Below, one piece after another: positions 10,675 to 28,662 of a stretch of 37,024 bases of DNA; the stretch's first letter is position 1; each line of letters starts with the position of its first letter. The stretch covers positions 1 to 37,024 of the forward strand of contig CAIOSO010000119.1 of assembly GCA_903860985.1 (NCBI GenBank). Reading direction: 5' to 3'. Below the pieces are notes generated by a model that was not told the DNA's origin, ran no database searches, and saw only the letters and a program-made list of their open reading frames with translations. Source of the DNA: an uncultured Flavobacteriales bacterium. Lineage in GTDB: Bacteria > Bacteroidota > Bacteroidia > Flavobacteriales_D > Crocinitomicaceae. The position numbers and the translations under genes are program-made.

Positions 10675-13600
10675 ATGCGTAAATTATTTCTATTCCTTTC
10701 GCTTTTAACTCTAGGATTTCAGTCCATTGCTCAAGATACAACCTGGGTACAGACCTTTACCTTTGATTCTATCACCGCTCGCAGATCTTTGTTTCAATTC
10801 CCATCAGAAATAGATACAATGCGTTTCGAAAAAGTAATGATGTATTACAAATTGAAATGTAGTCCCCTCACTTCCTGGGATCAATACGATTGTGGAGAAT
10901 GGGATTATTTGACTTATACACGTGTTTTTGATCATACAGGGAATTTTGACTCAATTGTTAACAATTCTAGTCGTTATTTATCAAACTGGGCTTCACCAAA
11001 CACCATTAATTACAAACCAATTCCATTCAATGAAGCGGACACCTATCAACGACAGGAATTTCACCGCAATGCGAATGCATTAACTTATTCAAATCCAGAA
11101 GTTTCCAATACAACAGCGAATTGGCCATTCAAAACGGACGAAAAGGGAGGTAGGTTTCAACAGTTAATCACCCTCCAACAATTAATTGCAGCAAATGTAC
11201 AATCAGGAGATTTACAATCTTTGCGATTGTTCATTCAAAATTTAGGTTCGAATGGCAATGTGTATTTTCCTGTAATTCGCTTAAAATCGACATTAGATCA
11301 AGACTTATTTGCATTTCATTCGGATGGATTTACGGAGGTTTACAATAGTTCAAGAGGGATCCCTAATAGTCAAACACCCTTAGTACTTGGTTCCAACGAA
11401 TTTGTTTTTTACCAACCATTTAGTTGGGATGGAATGTCTAATTTGATTGTAGAATATTCCTTTGAAAATGACTTTCCAAATGCAACTTCCTTGAATTTTG
11501 AAAGTGTTTCAGTTTCTGGAAACAAGGCAATTGCTTATCAGGGAAAAAATGGTTGTTTAACATTTAATGGTAGTAATTATACCATGCTGGAATATTCCGA
11601 TGAAGTCATGGGTGATGAAGTGACTATTGAATTTTGGGCCAAAGGAAATGGAGTGGCTGGATCTAATACGAGTTTTCTTGAAGCATATGACACACTCGGA
11701 AATCGTGTTTTGAACATTCACATGCCGTGGAGTAATAATAACCTTTATTGGGATGCAGGAAATCAAACAGGTTTTGACCGTATTAACAAGGCTATGTCCA
11801 CGAATGAAATAGATTCCGTTTGGAACCATTGGGCTTTTGTAAAAAAACAAAGTACGGGTGAAATGTTCATATATAAGAATGGGGCATTGTGGCATTCGGG
11901 AACTGGTTTGACGCGTTCAATAGGTTATATCCATCGCTTCATTCTAGGGGCGAGTAAAGACCAGTCTATTAAATGGAAAGGAAGTATTGATGAATTTAGA
12001 GTATTTAATTCGGCCTTATCCCAGTCCACCATTCAAGCAAACTTTGAACATAAAATTGATGCATCCCACCCAAATTGGTCGAATTTGAAAGTGTATTATG
12101 ACTTTGATAATGTCAATTATGCCGTGGATAAATCTTTAAATCAATACGATCTCATGCCCTCTGAATTCAATATGATTCAATTCAATGAACTGCCTTTGGT
12201 AGGTGTGACAACTGAGAATCTTATTCCTAAATTTTCATTCGGTCAAGGTCAATTAGTTACGCCTGTTGATACAGCCTATACAAATCAATTGAAAAAAATT
12301 GAACCGATTATTGTCTTTGAACAAGCACCACTTTTTCGTCATTTTGATATCGTTAATAGTTATATTGGACTACCTGAGGGAGAAATCCATGTGTATGATT
12401 ACGTTGGACACATTCTCAACACGATACCTGTTCAAACTTCGGTATCCCTTTTAAACAATCCAATTATTTGTTTCAATCCTCCTTATGAAATCATTCATGA
12501 TGTGGAAATTGCTCGTTACATCACTCCTTACGGCATCCAATTCGATCTCGGCCCAAATGGATTTACGTGGAAATACGATGTCACGGATTATCAGATGTAC
12601 TTGAAGGGACTCGTTGATTTAGCGGCACACAACACACAAGAATTGATTGATTTAAAATTTGCTTTCATTAAAGGGATTCCCCCTCGTGATGTTCATGCGC
12701 GTCAACCAATTTGGAGTGACTTTAAATCGTATAATTTCGCGCAAATGGCAAATGACGTGGTGTTACAGGAAAAACCGATTGTGCTTTCCGATACCTCTCA
12801 GACGTTTAAAATTAAAACAAGAATGTCGGGACACGGACAAGTTGGGGATGGCGCGTGTTGTGAATGGGTAGCGAATGACCACCAAATCAAAGTGGATGGT
12901 ATTTCACGTTTTAATTGGAATATTTGGCAATCAACGGATTGCGGAGACAACCCAAATATTGGACAAGGTGGAACTTGGCCATATGCCAGAGAGGGGTGGT
13001 GTCCGGGAGACCGTGTCAAAGAACATGAATTTGAATTAACTCCATACGTTAGCCCAGGTGATACGGTGAAATTGGATTATGCGATTAATGCGGTGCCAGG
13101 AAATGACCCAGGACAAGCCGGTGGAAATTACATTGCAGCTTATGATTTAATCTCTTATTCTGCTCCAAACTTTCAAAACGATGCGTCTATTTCGGATGTG
13201 TTAAATCCAAATAACTGGGAATATTACAGTAAATGGAATCCGACCTGTCAGAATCCACGTGTGGTGCTGAAAAATACCGGAGCTCAACCATTGACCTCTT
13301 GCCGCATTTTTGCTTGGATAACTTACGGAGATAACATCGTTTATGATTGGACTGGAAATCTTGGATTTTTAGAAGAGGTGGTGATTGAGTTGCCTGTAGA
13401 TAACATCGATTGGTGGACCGATTTATACAGTAATCAAACATTTACCGCTTGGGTTGCAGATGTGAATGGAATTATTGGCGAAGATGAGTACAATCAAAAT
13501 AGCTTGAAATCTGTCAAATTTGATGCCCCTGAACGTATTGATGGAGCATTTTATATTTGGTTGACAACGAATAACAAAGCAAGTGAAAATAAATACCGAT

Positions 13601-14145
13601 TAATCGATCATGCAGGAAACATTCTCTTTCAACGCGATGTATTAACGAATCAAACGCAATACAAGGATACCTTTAACTTAGCTCCTGGATGTTATTCGAT
13701 TATTGTAGAAGATTCCGATAGCGATGGACTTGGATTTTGGTACTCTAGTCAAGTAGAAGGTGAGACAACGGGACAAATGCGATTGAGACAAGTAGGAGGT
13801 TCTTACATTGAATTCTTCCCGCCAGATTTCGGAAATTATCACCGTTATGATTTTTCAGTAGGATTCACATTAGGAATCAAGGAAGAAGAATTGGCACATG
13901 AGATCGCAGTTTTCCCTAACCCAACAACTGGCTTGACAACCATTGAAGTAAGTGGGTCCGTCAATAATGATGCATCCATTGAGGTGTATGATTTATCAGG
14001 AAGACGTTTAATCAGTGAGAAAATGAATGCAACGGCTTTCTTTGCAGAATCCTTTTTGGACTTAAGTGCGATGAATGCAGGTTCGTATTTGGTTCGCATC
14101 ACAACAAATCAACGCGTGTATACCAAGGAATTGATCAAACAATAA
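10675..14145 (+). CDS. T9SS-secreted PNGase F-related protein with inserted LamG domain
   Basis: The 1156-residue protein has a signal peptide (about 1-20, LFLFLSLLTLGFQSIAQ). The first PNGase F half ends in CGEWDYL (C73-D77), the counterpart of CDEWDRY in Elizabethkingia PNGase F, whose last Asp is catalytic. About 530 residues intervene, including a laminin-G/concanavalin domain (about 271-461). PNGase F similarity then resumes at VEIARYITPYG (from 610) and KYDVTDYQMYLKG, and continues to SGHGQVGDGACCEW (Glu730, matching the second catalytic acid) and WPYAREGWCPGD. The third acid of PNGase F has no clear match. CARDB-like (833-935) and beta-sandwich domains precede a T9SS type A sorting domain (VFPNPTTG near 1079). 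Deglycosylation of secreted or host glycoproteins is inferred. I use the ATG at 10675, not an upstream TTG. Confidence 0.85.
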   Translation: MRKLFLFLSLLTLGFQSIAQDTTWVQTFTFDSITARRSLFQFPSEIDTMRFEKVMMYYKLKCSPLTSWDQYDCGEWDYLTYTRVFDHTGNFDSIVNNSSRYLSNWASPNTINYKPIPFNEADTYQRQEFHRNANALTYSNPEVSNTTANWPFKTDEKGGRFQQLITLQQLIAANVQSGDLQSLRLFIQNLGSNGNVYFPVIRLKSTLDQDLFAFHSDGFTEVYNSSRGIPNSQTPLVLGSNEFVFYQPFSWDGMSNLIVEYSFENDFPNATSLNFESVSVSGNKAIAYQGKNGCLTFNGSNYTMLEYSDEVMGDEVTIEFWAKGNGVAGSNTSFLEAYDTLGNRVLNIHMPWSNNNLYWDAGNQTGFDRINKAMSTNEIDSVWNHWAFVKKQSTGEMFIYKNGALWHSGTGLTRSIGYIHRFILGASKDQSIKWKGSIDEFRVFNSALSQSTIQANFEHKIDASHPNWSNLKVYYDFDNVNYAVDKSLNQYDLMPSEFNMIQFNELPLVGVTTENLIPKFSFGQGQLVTPVDTAYTNQLKKIEPIIVFEQAPLFRHFDIVNSYIGLPEGEIHVYDYVGHILNTIPVQTSVSLLNNPIICFNPPYEIIHDVEIARYITPYGIQFDLGPNGFTWKYDVTDYQMYLKGLVDLAAHNTQELIDLKFAFIKGIPPRDVHARQPIWSDFKSYNFAQMANDVVLQEKPIVLSDTSQTFKIKTRMSGHGQVGDGACCEWVANDHQIKVDGISRFNWNIWQSTDCGDNPNIGQGGTWPYAREGWCPGDRVKEHEFELTPYVSPGDTVKLDYAINAVPGNDPGQAGGNYIAAYDLISYSAPNFQNDASISDVLNPNNWEYYSKWNPTCQNPRVVLKNTGAQPLTSCRIFAWITYGDNIVYDWTGNLGFLEEVVIELPVDNIDWWTDLYSNQTFTAWVADVNGIIGEDEYNQNSLKSVKFDAPERIDGAFYIWLTTNNKASENKYRLIDHAGNILFQRDVLTNQTQYKDTFNLAPGCYSIIVEDSDSDGLGFWYSSQVEGETTGQMRLRQVGGSYIEFFPPDFGNYHRYDFSVGFTLGIKEEELAHEIAVFPNPTTGLTTIEVSGSVNNDASIEVYDLSGRRLISEKMNATAFFAESFLDLSAMNAGSYLVRITTNQRVYTKELIKQ

Positions 14146-14966: not shown

Positions 14967-15125
14967 ATGGAAATATCCAAACCAAAGCTTCGTTTACTAT
15001 TCGACATTTATCCTTATTTTTACTCAATGAATTGGAAAGAAGCTATTGTAAAATATTTCCCAGATGTATGGCAATATTTAATCATCATCATTATGTTTAT
15101 TTTTGCCGCAATTTTTATCCTTTAA
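14967..15125 (+). CDS. possible 52-residue single-pass membrane peptide
   Basis: An ATG at 14967 opens 52 codons ending TAA at 15125, ten bases before the ATG of the next gene. The product begins MEISKPKLRLLFDIYPYFYS and ends with a hydrophobic helix (WQYLIIIIMFIFAAIFIL), so it would be tail-anchored. TATATTAG at 14947-14954 is one base off the -7 consensus and spaced as in other near-leaderless genes here. Against it: a perfect -7 box for the next gene (15098-15105) lies inside its 3' end, and T-rich DNA can mimic a membrane helix. I do not recognise the sequence. An internal ATG at 15027 would give a 32-residue form. Confidence 0.4.
   Translation: MEISKPKLRLLFDIYPYFYSMNWKEAIVKYFPDVWQYLIIIIMFIFAAIFIL
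15098..15105 (+). promoter_or_regulatory. possible -7 box for the choice-of-anchor-B gene (TATTTTTG)
   Basis: TATTTTTG matches TAnnTTTG, 30 bases before the ATG at 15136. No TTG at -33 spacing. It falls in a T-rich stretch, so it may be chance. Confidence 0.35.
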
Positions 15126-15135
15126 GGCCTTACTT

Positions 15136-17493
15136 ATGTTCAAGTTTACTTGCTTTTTGAAATCGTCTTTGTGGTATTTCATTCTTATTTTTCTTGGGAA
15201 CCAATCCTTGATTGCCCAATTAAATATAGATTCCCTCTCGCACATTGATTATCAGCAATTGCACGGTGCAAACTTGAATGATGTATGGGGATATGTGGAT
15301 GAACTTGGGAACGAATATGCTATTGTTGGAACATCCAAAGGGACATCCATTGTGAATATTACCGATGGGTTCAATCCGCAAGAAGTGTTTTGGTTACCTG
15401 GTACGGAGTCCATTTGGAGAGACCCATGTGTTTATGGGAATTATGCATACGTTACAACGGAAGCGGAAGATGGACTGTTGATCATTGATTTAAGTCCATT
15501 GCCACAATCAACGAATCTGAGCTCAACTTTCTATACTGGACCAGCAGCTAATCCTTGGCAGTCTGCGCATACATGTTTTACATCAGCGAATGGCTATGCG
15601 TATATCTTTGGGTCAAACCGAGGAAATGGTGGAGTCATCATGTTGGATATTCACACGAATCCGATGAATCCAATCGAAGTTGGAACCTACGATTCATATT
15701 ACGTGCATGATGGATATGAACGAAATGACACCCTTTATATTGCACACATTTATAATGGATTCTTCAGTTTGGTGAATGTGGCGGATAAGTCCAATCCCAT
15801 TTTAATAGGGACACGAACTACTCCAAATTCCTTCACACACAATATTTGGCCCTCAGCGAATGGACATTATGTCTATACTACAGATGAAATTTCAGGTGCA
15901 TATGTCACCGCTTATGATATAGCGGATGGGTCAAATATTCAAGAAGTCGATCGTGTTCAAAGTACACAAAATTCATTTGTTATCCCACACAATGTCCATG
16001 TGCGCGGTGAATATTTGATCACAAGTTATTACAGTGATGGGGTCATCATTCACGATGCCACGTATCCATACAATTTAATTCAAGTTGGAAATTATGACAC
16101 GTACATTGGACAAACGCCAGGTTTTGATGGCTGTTGGGGTGTATATCCATTTTTTCCATCTGGAAAAGCGGTGGCGGCAGACATCACCAAAGGATTGTAT
16201 ATCCTTGGAATGAATTACAACAAGGCTTGTTACCTGGAGGGAGTTGTCACAGATGCAGTTAGTGGATTAACCTTGTCTAATGTGAGCGTTCAACTCTCTA
16301 GTGCAGTCATGCAGGAGAAAACAGATCAACTTGGATTTTACGCAACAGGATCTGCCTTGTCGGGTGTGTATACGATTAACTTTTCAAAGTCAGGATATTA
16401 TCCCATGACGATCACAGTTTCCTTGATAAATGATGAACTGATAACCTTGAATGTCCCCTTAATTCCGATTGCTCCATTTAATATGAACATAACGGTACTT
16501 GAGTACGGAACAAACAACCCCATTCCAGACGCACAAATTAGATTATTTCACCCCATGATTGAACACAATGGATTTACAAACGGATTAGGCGTAGAGGAGT
16601 TTGTGATGTATTATCAAGAAAGTTACCGACTAACAGTTGGAAAATGGGGATATCAAACCTTTTGTATCGATACAAGCATTACCGCGAATTCGAATGTATT
16701 AACGGTTCATTTGATTCCAGGATATTATGATGACTTTGAGTTCGACTTTGGCTGGAGTGTTTCCGGTGATGCAACAACGGGGATGTGGGAAAGAGGTGTG
16801 CCAAATCCTACTACGAATACTGTTCAAGCAATAGACGCCGAATGGGATTGTGGAAAAATGGCTTTTCTGACAGGAAATGATATTGGAATGAATCCAGATC
16901 ATGATGATGTAGATAGCGGATATACGCAATTACTTTCTCCACAAATGGATTTTAGTAATTTAACTACGCCATTCATCAATTTCGCTCAATCTTTCTTCTG
17001 CTACCATGGACCAGGATTATTTGATGACACCCTAAAAGTTTACTTATCCAACGGAACAACTACTGTGTTGATCTATCAAGTTGGAGCACCGGTCAGCTCA
17101 CCAATGACCTTCGAATATGTTAGCGTTCCTGTTTCTGGACTTCTGCCATTTACGAATTCCATGCAGGTGAAATTGACCATATCCGATTACGCCCCGAACA
17201 ATAACATTACAGAAGGGGGATTCGACCATTTTACAGTCACCAATATGCCAACGGCAACGGTTCCGGCAAAGGAGCTTTCAACTTGGGATCTTTATCCGAA
17301 TCCTTCTCAGGATAAACTTCACATTAAGGGACTTAATCAAATTGGAAATTGGTGCATTTTTGATGTAAGAGGTTGCGTTCTATTAGAAGGATTCACGGAA
17401 GAGTCTTCGATGGAAATCCCAGTAGACTACCTGATAAATGGTGTTTATTTTCTTCGCTTAAAAGAACAAGTGCGTCAATGGGTGAAACAATAA
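15136..17493 (+). CDS. choice-of-anchor B family protein with T9SS sorting domain
   Basis: The 785-residue protein starts with a signal peptide (about 1-28, cleaved after SLIAQ). Residues about 29-365 form the choice-of-anchor-B beta-propeller-like domain with LVIVD-type repeats (DVWGYVDELGNEYAIVGTS, GLLIIDLSPLP, YAYIFGSNRGNGGVIMLDI, HNIWPSANGHYVYTTDE). A carboxypeptidase-regulatory-like domain follows (about 366-445, LEGVVTDAVSGLTLSNVSV), then a second related Ig-like segment (about 448-535), a MAM-like beta-sandwich (about 535-700, DFEFDFGWSVSGDATTGMWE), and a T9SS type A sorting domain (from about 714, WDLYPNPSQDKLHI). It should be exported and anchored at or released from the outer membrane. 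Its ligand is unknown; the name describes the varied C-terminal anchors of the family. I start at the ATG at 15136, not the TTG at 15103. Confidence 0.9.
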   Translation: MFKFTCFLKSSLWYFILIFLGNQSLIAQLNIDSLSHIDYQQLHGANLNDVWGYVDELGNEYAIVGTSKGTSIVNITDGFNPQEVFWLPGTESIWRDPCVYGNYAYVTTEAEDGLLIIDLSPLPQSTNLSSTFYTGPAANPWQSAHTCFTSANGYAYIFGSNRGNGGVIMLDIHTNPMNPIEVGTYDSYYVHDGYERNDTLYIAHIYNGFFSLVNVADKSNPILIGTRTTPNSFTHNIWPSANGHYVYTTDEISGAYVTAYDIADGSNIQEVDRVQSTQNSFVIPHNVHVRGEYLITSYYSDGVIIHDATYPYNLIQVGNYDTYIGQTPGFDGCWGVYPFFPSGKAVAADITKGLYILGMNYNKACYLEGVVTDAVSGLTLSNVSVQLSSAVMQEKTDQLGFYATGSALSGVYTINFSKSGYYPMTITVSLINDELITLNVPLIPIAPFNMNITVLEYGTNNPIPDAQIRLFHPMIEHNGFTNGLGVEEFVMYYQESYRLTVGKWGYQTFCIDTSITANSNVLTVHLIPGYYDDFEFDFGWSVSGDATTGMWERGVPNPTTNTVQAIDAEWDCGKMAFLTGNDIGMNPDHDDVDSGYTQLLSPQMDFSNLTTPFINFAQSFFCYHGPGLFDDTLKVYLSNGTTTVLIYQVGAPVSSPMTFEYVSVPVSGLLPFTNSMQVKLTISDYAPNNNITEGGFDHFTVTNMPTATVPAKELSTWDLYPNPSQDKLHIKGLNQIGNWCIFDVRGCVLLEGFTEESSMEIPVDYLINGVYFLRLKEQVRQWVKQ

Positions 17494-25557: not shown

Positions 25558-28500
25558 TTATTCTTTCACGAATTGTTTCACAACGGCTTTATTATCTTGG
25601 TATAGTCCAAGGTAATAAGTTCCCGCAGCTAGTTTTCTACTCATCTCAATGGTTTGCTTTACCTTACCGTCTTTCGCTGTCAATTGAAAAGAGCTCACAA
25701 GTTGTCCGAAAATATTGAATAATTTCCCTTCAATCGTTGTCCCAACTACACCATCTACTTCCAATTCAAAAACCCCTTTGTTTGGATTCGGGTATAATTG
25801 AACCATCGAAAAACTTAATTCTTCCAGACCATCGGTTTTTACATCAACAACTGTGCTAGTGATACATCCATTTGCATCCTTGATGTAAACGGTATAAGTA
25901 GCAATAGATAAACCAGAGAACAAAGAACCTGAAAAATAATTCGTTCCGTCAATACTATAAGTGTATGGAAGATTCCCTCCAGCTCCCGTAACCGTAATTG
26001 TTCCATTTGAACCATTGGAAAGAGTAGTTGCACAAGAAATAGTTAATGGAGCAGGTTCAGTTACAGTGGTTGTAAATGTTTGCTGACAACCATTCGCATC
26101 TTTTACGGTAACCGTATAGGTTCCTGCTGAAAGTCCATTAAATGTATTGCTGGACACAAATGTCGTTCCGTTAATGCTATAGGTCAATGGGGCTGATCCA
26201 CCTGAAGCACTTACGAAAATTTGTCCGTTGTTTAATCCAGTACAAGAAATCATCGTTGGAACAGCGTTAACACCTATCGCAGCAGGTTCGGTAATCGTAA
26301 TGTTTGTTGTTCCCATGCACCCATTCGCATCTTGCGCATAAAGCGTGTAGGTTCCCGCCGCCAAATTACTGAATGTATTAGATGCTTGATAGCTAGTTCC
26401 ATTAATGGAATAACTATAGGATGCTTGTCCACCCGTTGCAGAAATTGTGATGGCCGCATTTGTATTCCCATGACAACTAATGTTCGTAATTTGGGTTGGA
26501 GTCGCTGTAATTGTCGCTGCTGATGGCAGGACAAAAGTACCAGTCCCAGAACATCCACCATTTTCTGTGATGGTGTAAGTATATGATCCTGGGGCAAGGT
26601 TTCCAAATACAGGAGAAGATTGAGCAGCTCCGTTATTTATTGAGTATGTATATGGAGCAGTTCCCCCTGTAGCTGTTAAGGTAACTTGTCCGTTGTTAGA
26701 TGTACACGTAGGAGCGAAATTTACGGTCCAATTTGCCGTGATTGCAGAACCACCTCCAACAATGACGTTAATAGTTTTTGAATCATTACAAATGTTGTCA
26801 TCTGGTGAAGTGCCATTAACTGTTGTGGAAGATATACTTACAGAATTACTTCCATTAACAAGTCCAGTTACTGTGATAAAAACCGTATCCATCGCACCGA
26901 CACTTGTTAATTGATTGGATGTATAATTGACAGAAGTAACAGCGCCGGTTCCAACTTGCCATGTTAAAACACCAGAAGTGATGGAGGTGCTACCTGTTTG
27001 TTGAACAATGACACCCACTTGAGTGGAAGACCCACAAGCCGCTCCAGTTCCTGGAACAAATACGGCAGAAATAGCAGCGTCTATAGCGTCTGGATTCATT
27101 CGAATAGCACTGACATTAGTTTTGGTTTGTGAGTTTTGGTAATCACCGGAGTAATAAAAGGTCACACCGTCAAAATCATCAATTGACATATGATGGTAAT
27201 CTCCCCATCGCGTATCTCCCGTTTTGGAAGAAGTTCCAGCAATAATTGTTGTTTCTGGCATGGTCATTTGTCCAAGTGGGTCACATGGTTTTCTACCGGT
27301 CATTTTGATAGATGGATAATCACCTGCGTTGTTGCTAGATGTTGAATAAGCCATGATGATGTTACCATATTTATCGATGTTAATCGCAGGCATCCAACGA
27401 CTTGTTCCAGTTCCAGGTGCATATGTTCCTTCTTGGTAATTCACCCATGTTGCTGTAGTTACATTTGAAGCACGTCGTAATTCAACCCAGCGAATTCCTG
27501 CTCGGTCAGCACCGTCCACATCTGTTGCTAAAGCAGCTAGGATTGTTTGATGATCGTCAAATACGCGCATTGGTGCTTTTTGCATAACCGGTTCTCGAAG
27601 TGGATCCAAGGTAATAGTTGTTCCAGGTTGTTTAATACATGCAAAACTGGTCAACCCGCAAAGTTTCGAATCGATTTCCGCGATGGAAACATCTTGAATT
27701 TTTGTTGATGTAGCAGTATTTGCTGTCCAGTTTATATTCATTTCCCATAATTCTAGCCAATCGTTCGTTCCACTATCTGGTGAACCATTTGAATGAGATT
27801 CATCATCTCTGTGTCGAATAAACAAAGGTTTCATTCCTGCAGGCGCAGCATTATCTCCTTCTAAATCTACAGGAGTAATTGATTGAAATCCAAATCCATT
27901 TAGGGTGTAACCAATCGTTGTTTTAATGAAAGGCGAAGTGGCGCCAGTCAACATAGCACTAATTTTCATAGCGTAAATACTTGGCGCTCCACCTTGATTT
28001 GTACTTGCTACAAATGCATCAGATGCGTCACAGAATGCATACTTTGGATAATCCGGAAACGCAGTACAAGTGAAAGAATAGGTGTAATATGCACCTTGTG
28101 GATTACTCGTTTGAGAAACGTGAATCATTAATTTGTTTCCAGAACTCGAAAATTCTGTTAAAAACCAACGTCTAGCCGGTTTGTAATATAAGACAATCGG
28201 GTCTCCTAATCCAGCTACACCTCCTAATCCTTGCATCGTTGCTGAACTCTGAATGGTCGCTCCAGTTGCTTTGTTGAAAATTCGGTAAACAGCACCACCA
28301 CTAGAATTGGTGGATTCAATTACCACATTGCTATCTGCATCTAAGGTTGGGTCAGGGGGTGATAAATTGGTTCCCAGTCCTTGAAATGCCCACAAAACAG
28401 TTGCTGAAGGAGTTTTTTCTGTTGCTTCATGTTGTTGCCACACCCAATCTGGATTGTGCGTGTTTGATTGATCTACTTCTAATAGTTCTTTTCCTTTAAA

Positions 28501-28662
28501 GTTTGGTTTAATAACTTGTTGGTGTGGTGTTACCTGATTTGGATTGGCAGGTACCAAATGGGAGATGGTAGGTGTGAAGTATCCAAGAAATTGAGAATCT
28601 TGCGCATAAGAGAAGATTGTTAACAAGGAAAATAAACCTAGATGGAGTAATTTTGTTTTCAT
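25558..28662 (-). CDS. SprB-repeat protein with T9SS type A sorting domain
   Basis: The 1034-residue protein has a signal peptide (about 1-20, LLHLGLFSLLTIFSYA). Residues about 80-540 form a large beta-rich exported domain seen in Bacteroidota exoproteins, with no recognised catalytic motif. A CARDB-like module follows. Four SprB-type repeats of about 75 residues then run from about 635 to 945, each with the core (Y/T)YSINGT, a later G-T-Y-T segment, and D-x-N-G-C (AGTYTLYAQDANGCMGT, AGTYTVTVKDANGCQQT, IATYTVYIKDANGCITS). SprB is the gliding adhesin of Flavobacterium, but four repeats are far fewer than in true SprB, so surface adhesion is only inferred. The last about 80 residues (from VQLYPNPNKG, near 954) are the T9SS sorting domain. 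Confidence 0.9.
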   Translation of the reverse strand: MKTKLLHLGLFSLLTIFSYAQDSQFLGYFTPTISHLVPANPNQVTPHQQVIKPNFKGKELLEVDQSNTHNPDWVWQQHEATEKTPSATVLWAFQGLGTNLSPPDPTLDADSNVVIESTNSSGGAVYRIFNKATGATIQSSATMQGLGGVAGLGDPIVLYYKPARRWFLTEFSSSGNKLMIHVSQTSNPQGAYYTYSFTCTAFPDYPKYAFCDASDAFVASTNQGGAPSIYAMKISAMLTGATSPFIKTTIGYTLNGFGFQSITPVDLEGDNAAPAGMKPLFIRHRDDESHSNGSPDSGTNDWLELWEMNINWTANTATSTKIQDVSIAEIDSKLCGLTSFACIKQPGTTITLDPLREPVMQKAPMRVFDDHQTILAALATDVDGADRAGIRWVELRRASNVTTATWVNYQEGTYAPGTGTSRWMPAINIDKYGNIIMAYSTSSNNAGDYPSIKMTGRKPCDPLGQMTMPETTIIAGTSSKTGDTRWGDYHHMSIDDFDGVTFYYSGDYQNSQTKTNVSAIRMNPDAIDAAISAVFVPGTGAACGSSTQVGVIVQQTGSTSITSGVLTWQVGTGAVTSVNYTSNQLTSVGAMDTVFITVTGLVNGSNSVSISSTTVNGTSPDDNICNDSKTINVIVGGGSAITANWTVNFAPTCTSNNGQVTLTATGGTAPYTYSINNGAAQSSPVFGNLAPGSYTYTITENGGCSGTGTFVLPSAATITATPTQITNISCHGNTNAAITISATGGQASYSYSINGTSYQASNTFSNLAAGTYTLYAQDANGCMGTTNITITEPAAIGVNAVPTMISCTGLNNGQIFVSASGGSAPLTYSINGTTFVSSNTFNGLSAGTYTVTVKDANGCQQTFTTTVTEPAPLTISCATTLSNGSNGTITVTGAGGNLPYTYSIDGTNYFSGSLFSGLSIATYTVYIKDANGCITSTVVDVKTDGLEELSFSMVQLYPNPNKGVFELEVDGVVGTTIEGKLFNIFGQLVSSFQLTAKDGKVKQTIEMSRKLAAGTYYLGLYQDNKAVVKQFVKE

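Follow-up and report, generated by a model that had tools for sequence, protein, structure and literature searches.

The stretch of DNA analysed here (the window: 37,024 nt, contig CAIOSO010000119.1 of assembly GCA_903860985.1, from an uncultured Flavobacteriales bacterium of the Crocinitomicaceae) carries, at 10675-14145 on the plus strand, a gene for a relative of the peptide:N-glycosidase PNGase F whose catalytic domain is interrupted by an insert of about 510 residues. This split design is that of a conserved family spread across many related aquatic bacteria and is not a one-off. The evidence lies in the architecture of the protein, in the single fold built across the split, in the conservation of its residues and in its export signal. 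We consider it likely that the protein is a catalytically competent peptide:N-glycosidase of the PNGase F superfamily, secreted by the type IX secretion system (T9SS), with the insert as a binding arm; activity, substrate class and binding are what we infer from these data. The open reading frame and its translation were checked (1156 amino acids, aa), and the parts of the gene are as follows.

10675-14145, plus strand: whole gene of the split PNGase F-like protein, 1156 aa (translation; full-length orthologs).
10675-10734, plus strand: signal peptide, residues 1-20 (sequence; cleavage before DTTW placed by eye).
10735-10950, plus strand: first part of the PNGase F fold, residues 21-92, with D77 at 10903-10905 (model, conservation, insert-free relatives).
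10951-12483, plus strand: insert, about residues 93-603, bounded by strands 79-92 and 604-616 (AlphaFold2 strands; stand-alone model of residues 85-608).
10951-11079, plus strand: N-terminal piece of the insert, residues 93-135, which together with 511-603 resembles the shorter insert seen in the mid forms.
11080-11541, plus strand: beta-rich region of the insert without a Pfam name, residues 136-289 (Pfam, models).
11545-12204, plus strand: LamG/pentraxin-fold domain of the insert, residues 291-510 (PF13385 at 301-454; structural matches).
12205-12483, plus strand: C-terminal piece of the insert, residues 511-603 (profile matches of mid relatives; stand-alone insert model).
12484-13167, plus strand: second part of the PNGase F fold, residues 604-831 (Pfam, phmmer, model, conservation).
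12640-12642, 12832-12834, 12862-12864 and 12988-12990, plus strand: E656, H720, E730 and R772; WCPG is residues 775-778.
13168-13869, plus strand: C-terminal beta domains common to insert-free relatives, residues 832-1065 (boundaries read off the model).
13909-14136, plus strand: T9SS type A sorting domain, residues 1079-1154 (Pfam).

The AlphaFold2 model was built on 42 homologs (mean predicted local distance difference test score, pLDDT, 84.1; predicted template modelling score, pTM, 0.51). When this predicted model was submitted to the VIA structural search, residues 1-305 of PNGase F (1pnf) fell on residues 17-831, with 268 aligned residues, a root-mean-square deviation of 3.1 and Z 22.8, i.e. 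two side-by-side eight-stranded jelly rolls; the other fold matches were zebrafish Ngly2 (Z 21.2), PNGF-II (Z 19.2) and the B. massiliensis PNGase (Z 18.9). A first-pass annotation, made from the DNA letters, had held that a model in which the two halves fail to form one such double jelly roll would refute it, and the model did not do so: in it the insert emerges from a hairpin and the double jelly roll stays intact. The stretch that follows the insert (604-831) counts 228 residues against 268 aligned, so that some of the aligned residues have to come from the first part or else from the insert, a point which the alignment range by itself cannot show. With phmmer the window protein matched PNGase F at 9.3e-11, the best stretch being 611-810, and the EWD half alone, compared with the chains of PNGase F, scored between -1.9 and 2.1 bits, which is chance level by sequence. 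The profile of 12 insert-free relatives, a comparison that the first-pass annotation had also called for, aligned unbroken to PNGase F 3-304 (E 2.3e-51) with WD on Trp59-Asp60. The homology of the N-terminal half is secure because three results concur: the model alignment, the insert-free profile and the invariance of C-G-E-W-D in the 113 distinct long homologs (>1100 aa; free of identical copies but with close relatives still in it) that make up our conservation set.

Pfam recognised Laminin_G_3 (301-454, 5.4e-15), N-glycanase_C (PF09113; 701-812, 2.9e-11, 43.8 bits) and Por_Secre_tail (1079-1154, 3.8e-16), each of which matched 42/42 members of alignment A2 (the window protein plus 41 of the 78 relative loci). 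N-glycanase_N (PF09112) was not among the families listed for these 42 members, nor was it matched by the three insert-free relatives scanned (L193, L073 and L187); the mid forms L181 and L185 matched it weakly, below cut-off. Splitting of the profile by the insert was dropped as the cause of the missed match, since the insert-free proteins lack it too: it is also through divergence, besides the insert, that the first half escapes the profile. We treat the missing match as a limit of the profile, the fold being present in the model.

It had been noticed at the outset that two segments close together in PNGase F, CGEWDYL with D77 and VEIARYITPYG from residue 610, are here far apart with a LamG domain between them. 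The residues are as given, D77 aligns to Asp60, and the spacing from EWDY to TPY is 531-556 in 57/57 long forms, 129-136 in 6 mid forms and 25-54 in 14 insert-free forms. The interruption of the catalytic domain stood, with the amendment that LamG makes up under half of the approximately 510 residues of the insert (about 93-603). Modelled alone (residues 85-608), the insert reached pLDDT 93.6 and pTM 0.89 and is, in this model, a rigid unit. Residues 291-510 matched LamG and pentraxin folds (4dqa, Z 22.4; PAPP-A, about 22; CRP and SAP, about 20-21) and form a concanavalin A-like sandwich according to both Pfam and the structural search. For the insert folds outside LamG, the VIA structural search, whose list is filled by LamG matches, gave no identity. 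The pieces 93-135 and 511-603 correspond to what is seen in L181-L184, where the profile matches are 1-128 plus 529-1136. LamG is the most conserved part of the insert: the cluster R344, N347, H349, W352, Y358, D360, R369, W383 and H385 was kept in 107-113 of the 113 long homologs, its positions being changed or gapped in up to 6.

The strongest conservation lies in the PNGase core. Residues C62, C73, G74, E75, W76, D77, E656, H720, E730, C756, Q764-W768, R772 and W775-G778 were invariant in 113/113, and Y78 and Q655 were kept in 112/113. The three PNGase stretches have 19.4, 20.2 and 15.7% of their columns at least 95% conserved, the insert stretches 0-6.8% and the C-terminal domains 12.1 and 9.1%. 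Sequence alignments equate D77 with PNGase F Asp60 and E730 with Glu206; the early assignment of E730 (in CCEW) and WCPGD (775-779) to PNGase F regions was sound. W76-D77-Y78 conforms to the motif aromatic-Asp-positive/aromatic, and H720 and E730 provide the His and Glu of one loop. Some of the PNGase F residue numbers, e.g. that of the Arg before GWCPG, come from alignment or general background. Zebrafish Ngly2 cannot do without its counterparts of Asp60 and Glu206 (PMC12753239), and in other PNGases a His is usual where PNGase F has Trp191, together with a Glu on the same loop (PMC12381499).

The family is widely distributed. One full copy is present in the 191-contig assembly to which the window belongs. 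Among 40 genomes (this one and relatives), 39 matched at E ≤ 0.001, many only via the shared tail domains; a full-length copy was found in 19/25 same-genus genomes (own included), and seven genomes of other families carry one at 31-38% identity. PF09113 was matched by 305/399 genomes sampled from the order versus 0/14 control genomes. With the long-family profile at E ≤ 1e-150, a cut that admits at least two insert-free genomes (G111 and G313), the count was 289/399, or 175/238 for high-quality genomes; most of the 289 have one match. Assemblies of 1.2-2.5 Mb, not all of them complete, are among the 289. In the phylum sample 49/395 genomes matched at E ≤ 1e-30, some only via the C-terminal domains. 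The search for relatives returned at least 591 stretches, 578 of them encoding a relative; the best 80 of the 578, which are 78 loci, come mostly from metagenome-assembled genomes (MAGs) of Crocinitomicaceae and other Flavobacteriales. Two cultured organisms, Fluviicola chungangensis and Crocinitomix algicola, carry the same architecture end to end.

A core tree was computed for 89 proteins (57 long, 6 mid, 14 insert-free, 5 accessory-N and 7 short), the cores being cut by motif because MAFFT misaligned the N-terminal part of the accessory-N and short forms, which are also the rows concerned by a long-branch warning. The 57 long forms are one clade (Shimodaira-Hasegawa-like approximate likelihood ratio test, 98; no bootstrap). 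Stepwise growth of a single insert was rejected: mid and long forms as one clade, a group named after seeing the tree, gave p 0.015 in the approximately unbiased test, which implies either repeated origins or a loss of the mid-type insert. These sequence comparisons support a single origin for the long form only.

That a T9SS tail foretells secretion was also part of the first-pass annotation. The protein has the features of type A cargo, i.e. a signal peptide (helix 2-17 in the model; D21 and T22 invariant across A2) and a Por_Secre_tail, and SprA, the T9SS part searched, is encoded in the same genome; secretion is predicted on this basis. The genome also has two matches to glycoside hydrolase family GH92 and one to GH20, families found in 3/14 and 4/14 control genomes, respectively. 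Across the 399 genomes of the order, both PNGase and GH92 were present in 255, PNGase only in 33, GH92 only in 62 and neither in 49 (the table counts 288 of the 289 PNGase-positive genomes). The odds ratio of 6.1 is confounded by kinship and completeness and was graded as weak evidence.

In the reading that we favour, the protein would be exported via Sec and then T9SS, and would act at or beyond the cell surface. Residues 21-92 and 604-831 would fold into the double jelly roll, where Asp77 and Glu730 would take on the chemistry of Asp60 and Glu206 and hydrolyse the amide between N-acetylglucosamine (GlcNAc) and Asn, with Trp76, Tyr78, His720 and Arg772 surrounding the chitobiose. Residues 93-603 would form a rigid arm grown from one hairpin and bearing the pentraxin-type LamG. 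LamG and pentraxin folds often bind ligands, and the arm is a putative glycan- or glycoprotein-binding module that would keep the substrate at the cell surface. The released glycans could be trimmed by the bacterium's own GH92 and GH20 enzymes. Release of an N-glycan from a glycoprotein is thus a prediction from sequence and model, the substrates being most likely plant-, algal- or invertebrate-type N-glycoproteins.

Several observations weigh against this reading. Glu118 of PNGase F has no equivalent, as the first-pass annotation had remarked of the third acidic residue: the aligned sites 652-654 are H/G, N and T/Q/W, and the aromatic of position 120 is not kept. The 118 hairpin is about 5 residues shorter than that of PNGase F, has no acid at the 118 place (the exact counterpart residue being uncertain) and carries Gln-Glu (QE) at 655-656. 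A script search found QE in this hairpin in 53/56 long rows (the remaining three missed or different), in 2/6 mid forms (L185 and L186), and in 0/14 insert-free, 0/5 accessory-N and 0/7 short forms; E656 may stand in for Glu118. In a type II PNGase, Gly replaces Glu118 and gives space for core alpha1,3-fucose, another Glu being thought to take over (PMC9522356). The loss of Glu118 is therefore no argument against activity; by analogy, the site may well admit N-glycans with core alpha1,3-fucose, as in plants, algae and invertebrates. The remaining adverse points concern the model and the genomic context. Active-site stretches 727-729 and 754-778 have pLDDT <50 and the model as a whole reaches a pTM of 0.51, so that it fixes neither the pocket geometry nor where the arm lies with respect to the pocket. 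Along its strand, the hairpin that carries the insert seems to lie distal to Asp60, and the arm may not touch the substrate. GH92 is lacking in 33/288 PNGase-positive genomes, including all 7 PNGase-positive genomes of genus g22. No glycan-utilisation gene was found among the seven window neighbours scanned, and neighbours in common were found only for same-genus loci, several of the loci examined having short flanks.

The alternative that survives best, possible and clearly less probable than the reading above, keeps the catalysis and makes of the insert a structural spacer, or a dimer or cell-surface contact, that binds no glycan, LamG being a passenger. The polar and aromatic LamG cluster (107-113/113), the strict insert length of the long forms (531-556 in 57/57) and the frequency of ligand binding among LamG and pentraxin folds argue against it. 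What favours it is that the insert columns are far less conserved than the PNGase core, that a type II enzyme does not need its N-terminal bowl-like domain (NBL) to be active (PMC9522356) and that Ngly2 dimerises through accessory domains (PMC12753239).

Unlikely, in our view, is a housekeeping amidase acting on another glycan-amide, that of bacterial or archaeal N-glycoproteins or of the cell's own surface glycoconjugates. Matches in 289/399 genomes, mostly single and retained in assemblies of 1.2-2.5 Mb, would suit such a role, as would the persistence of the protein without GH92 in g22, neighbours devoid of glycan-utilisation genes and a 118 hairpin remodelled in the long clade; retention of the chitobiose-site residues, GH92 and GH20 in the own genome and the (confounded) association with GH92 point the other way. 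We hold as improbable the more specific proposal of a near-core Flavobacteriales surface amidase that does not serve feeding on eukaryotic glycoproteins and cuts glycan-amides of the own envelope or of bacterial/archaeal N-glycoproteins, e.g. trimming surface-anchored T9SS cargo; it invokes the Gln-Glu-remodelled hairpin and the pentraxin-like arm. Slightly lower still we rank a PNGase scaffold that has lost catalysis and serves as a lectin or adhesin, an outcome which the first-pass annotation had entertained: Glu118 is missing, a LamG domain is present and the PF09113 score is modest (43.8 bits), yet D77, E656, H720, E730 and R772 are invariant in 113/113 when the LamG cluster is altered in up to 6/113, and type II enzymes are active without Glu118 (PMC9522356). 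An assembly chimera or a fusion of neighbouring genes, conceivable for a 191-contig assembly, has a negligible chance of being correct and was rejected on the orthologs, the identical architecture occurring in many independent assemblies, those of the cultured F. chungangensis and C. algicola included.

Compared with known systems, the window protein shares with PNGase F (Elizabethkingia meningoseptica, 1PNF/1PGS; PF09112 and PF09113; type I) the double jelly roll, the Asp60/Glu206 equivalents, Trp59 and the GWCPG segment with its Arg. PNGase F has no insert and is 314 aa long, against 1156 aa, and in place of its Glu118, Arg61 and Trp191 the window protein carries, respectively, a shortened hairpin that ends in Q655-E656, Tyr78 and His720; the window protein lacks the acidic residue at 118 expected of type I. 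Type II PNGases (PNGF-II, 4R4X/4R4Z; B. massiliensis, 7ZGN) are similar in fold (Z about 19). They have no Glu at the 118 place; the window protein shows no acid there, its exact counterpart residue being uncertain. Their NBL is absent here, the PNGase strands starting at residue 22 after the signal peptide. Zebrafish Ngly2 (9LWG; Z 21.2) has the same catalytic pair; its PA and thioredoxin-like domains lie outside the PNGase domain, not inside, and it is lysosomal (PMC12753239). PNGaseL, PNGaseDo and the other enzymes of PMC12381499 resemble the window protein in their accessory beta-modules, in the T9SS tails of two of them and in the room that their models leave around C3 of the core GlcNAc; in the sections cited their modules are described as N- or C-terminal to the catalytic domain, and the words 'insert' and 'split' are absent from the text. 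The LamG/pentraxin-fold proteins BACOVA_03559 (4DQA), PAPP-A and CRP/SAP have the fold of residues 291-510 (Z about 20-22), unlike them embedded here inside an amidase domain. Insert-free (L073-L078, L187-L194) and small-insert (L181-L186) relatives have the same PNGase core and, in those checked, similar C-terminal domains except in the short L194; they differ by the absence of QE in the 118 hairpin, save in the mid forms L185 and L186. Searches of the open-licence PubMed Central (PMC) literature turned up no PNGase reported to have a LamG module within its catalytic domain; this scope takes in few of the subscription papers, so that absence is not proven. Such split sequences may also be present, without comment, among the 1897 PNGase F sequences for which a survey of 2025 gives a tree (PMC12381499).

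The long forms, a large clade among the relatives of PNGase F, have in common a catalytic domain in two pieces, and profile annotation sees them only partly. If they are active, the removal of N-glycans would come close to a core trait in Crocinitomicaceae and further Flavobacteriales. The natural series without insert, with a small insert and with the insert of about 510 residues lends itself to probing the effect of an embedded lectin-like arm on an amidase. With Glu118 lost, the enzyme is predicted to act on glycans with core alpha1,3-fucose, a property that would be of use to glycan analysis.

The seven neighbours scanned encode a beta-lactamase-fold hydrolase, a DUF1003 protein, an LVIVD-type T9SS protein, SecDF, an SprB-repeat protein, a TPR protein and a Sortilin/BNR protein. 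The LVIVD-type protein, which also has carboxypeptidase-regulatory-like domains, is next but one downstream (window 15103-17490, plus strand), and the SprB-repeat protein has a T9SS tail (window 25561-28662, minus strand). A conserved operon that would reveal function was rejected: among the loci examined, those of the same genus are the only ones to repeat fba-accD upstream and the LVIVD-type protein downstream, relatives of the latter lying near the PNGase gene in several of them. The g22 genomes with a long-family match and no GH92 match are G108, G135, G156, G170, G189, G213 and G302.

Other forms were met in the course of the survey. LamG stands N-terminal to an uninterrupted PNGase core in L079, L080, L081 and L092 (Pfam), another joining of the same parts; L195 was ruled out as a member of this group, the domain N-terminal to its uninterrupted core being of F5/F8 type C. 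The order also has short PNGases (about 400-560 aa; L023-L052), a distant branch often found beside the long form, and many f9 genomes have two PF09113 matches each. Four loci 58-79% identical to the window protein (L099, L107, L114 and L122) lie on MAG contigs titled Polynucleobacter, Chryseobacterium gleum or Chitinophaga pinensis, which look like wrong taxonomic labels. Finally, the long forms L174, L175, L178, L179, L196, L198 and L199 have open frames of 1263-1314 aa with a different or extended C-terminus.

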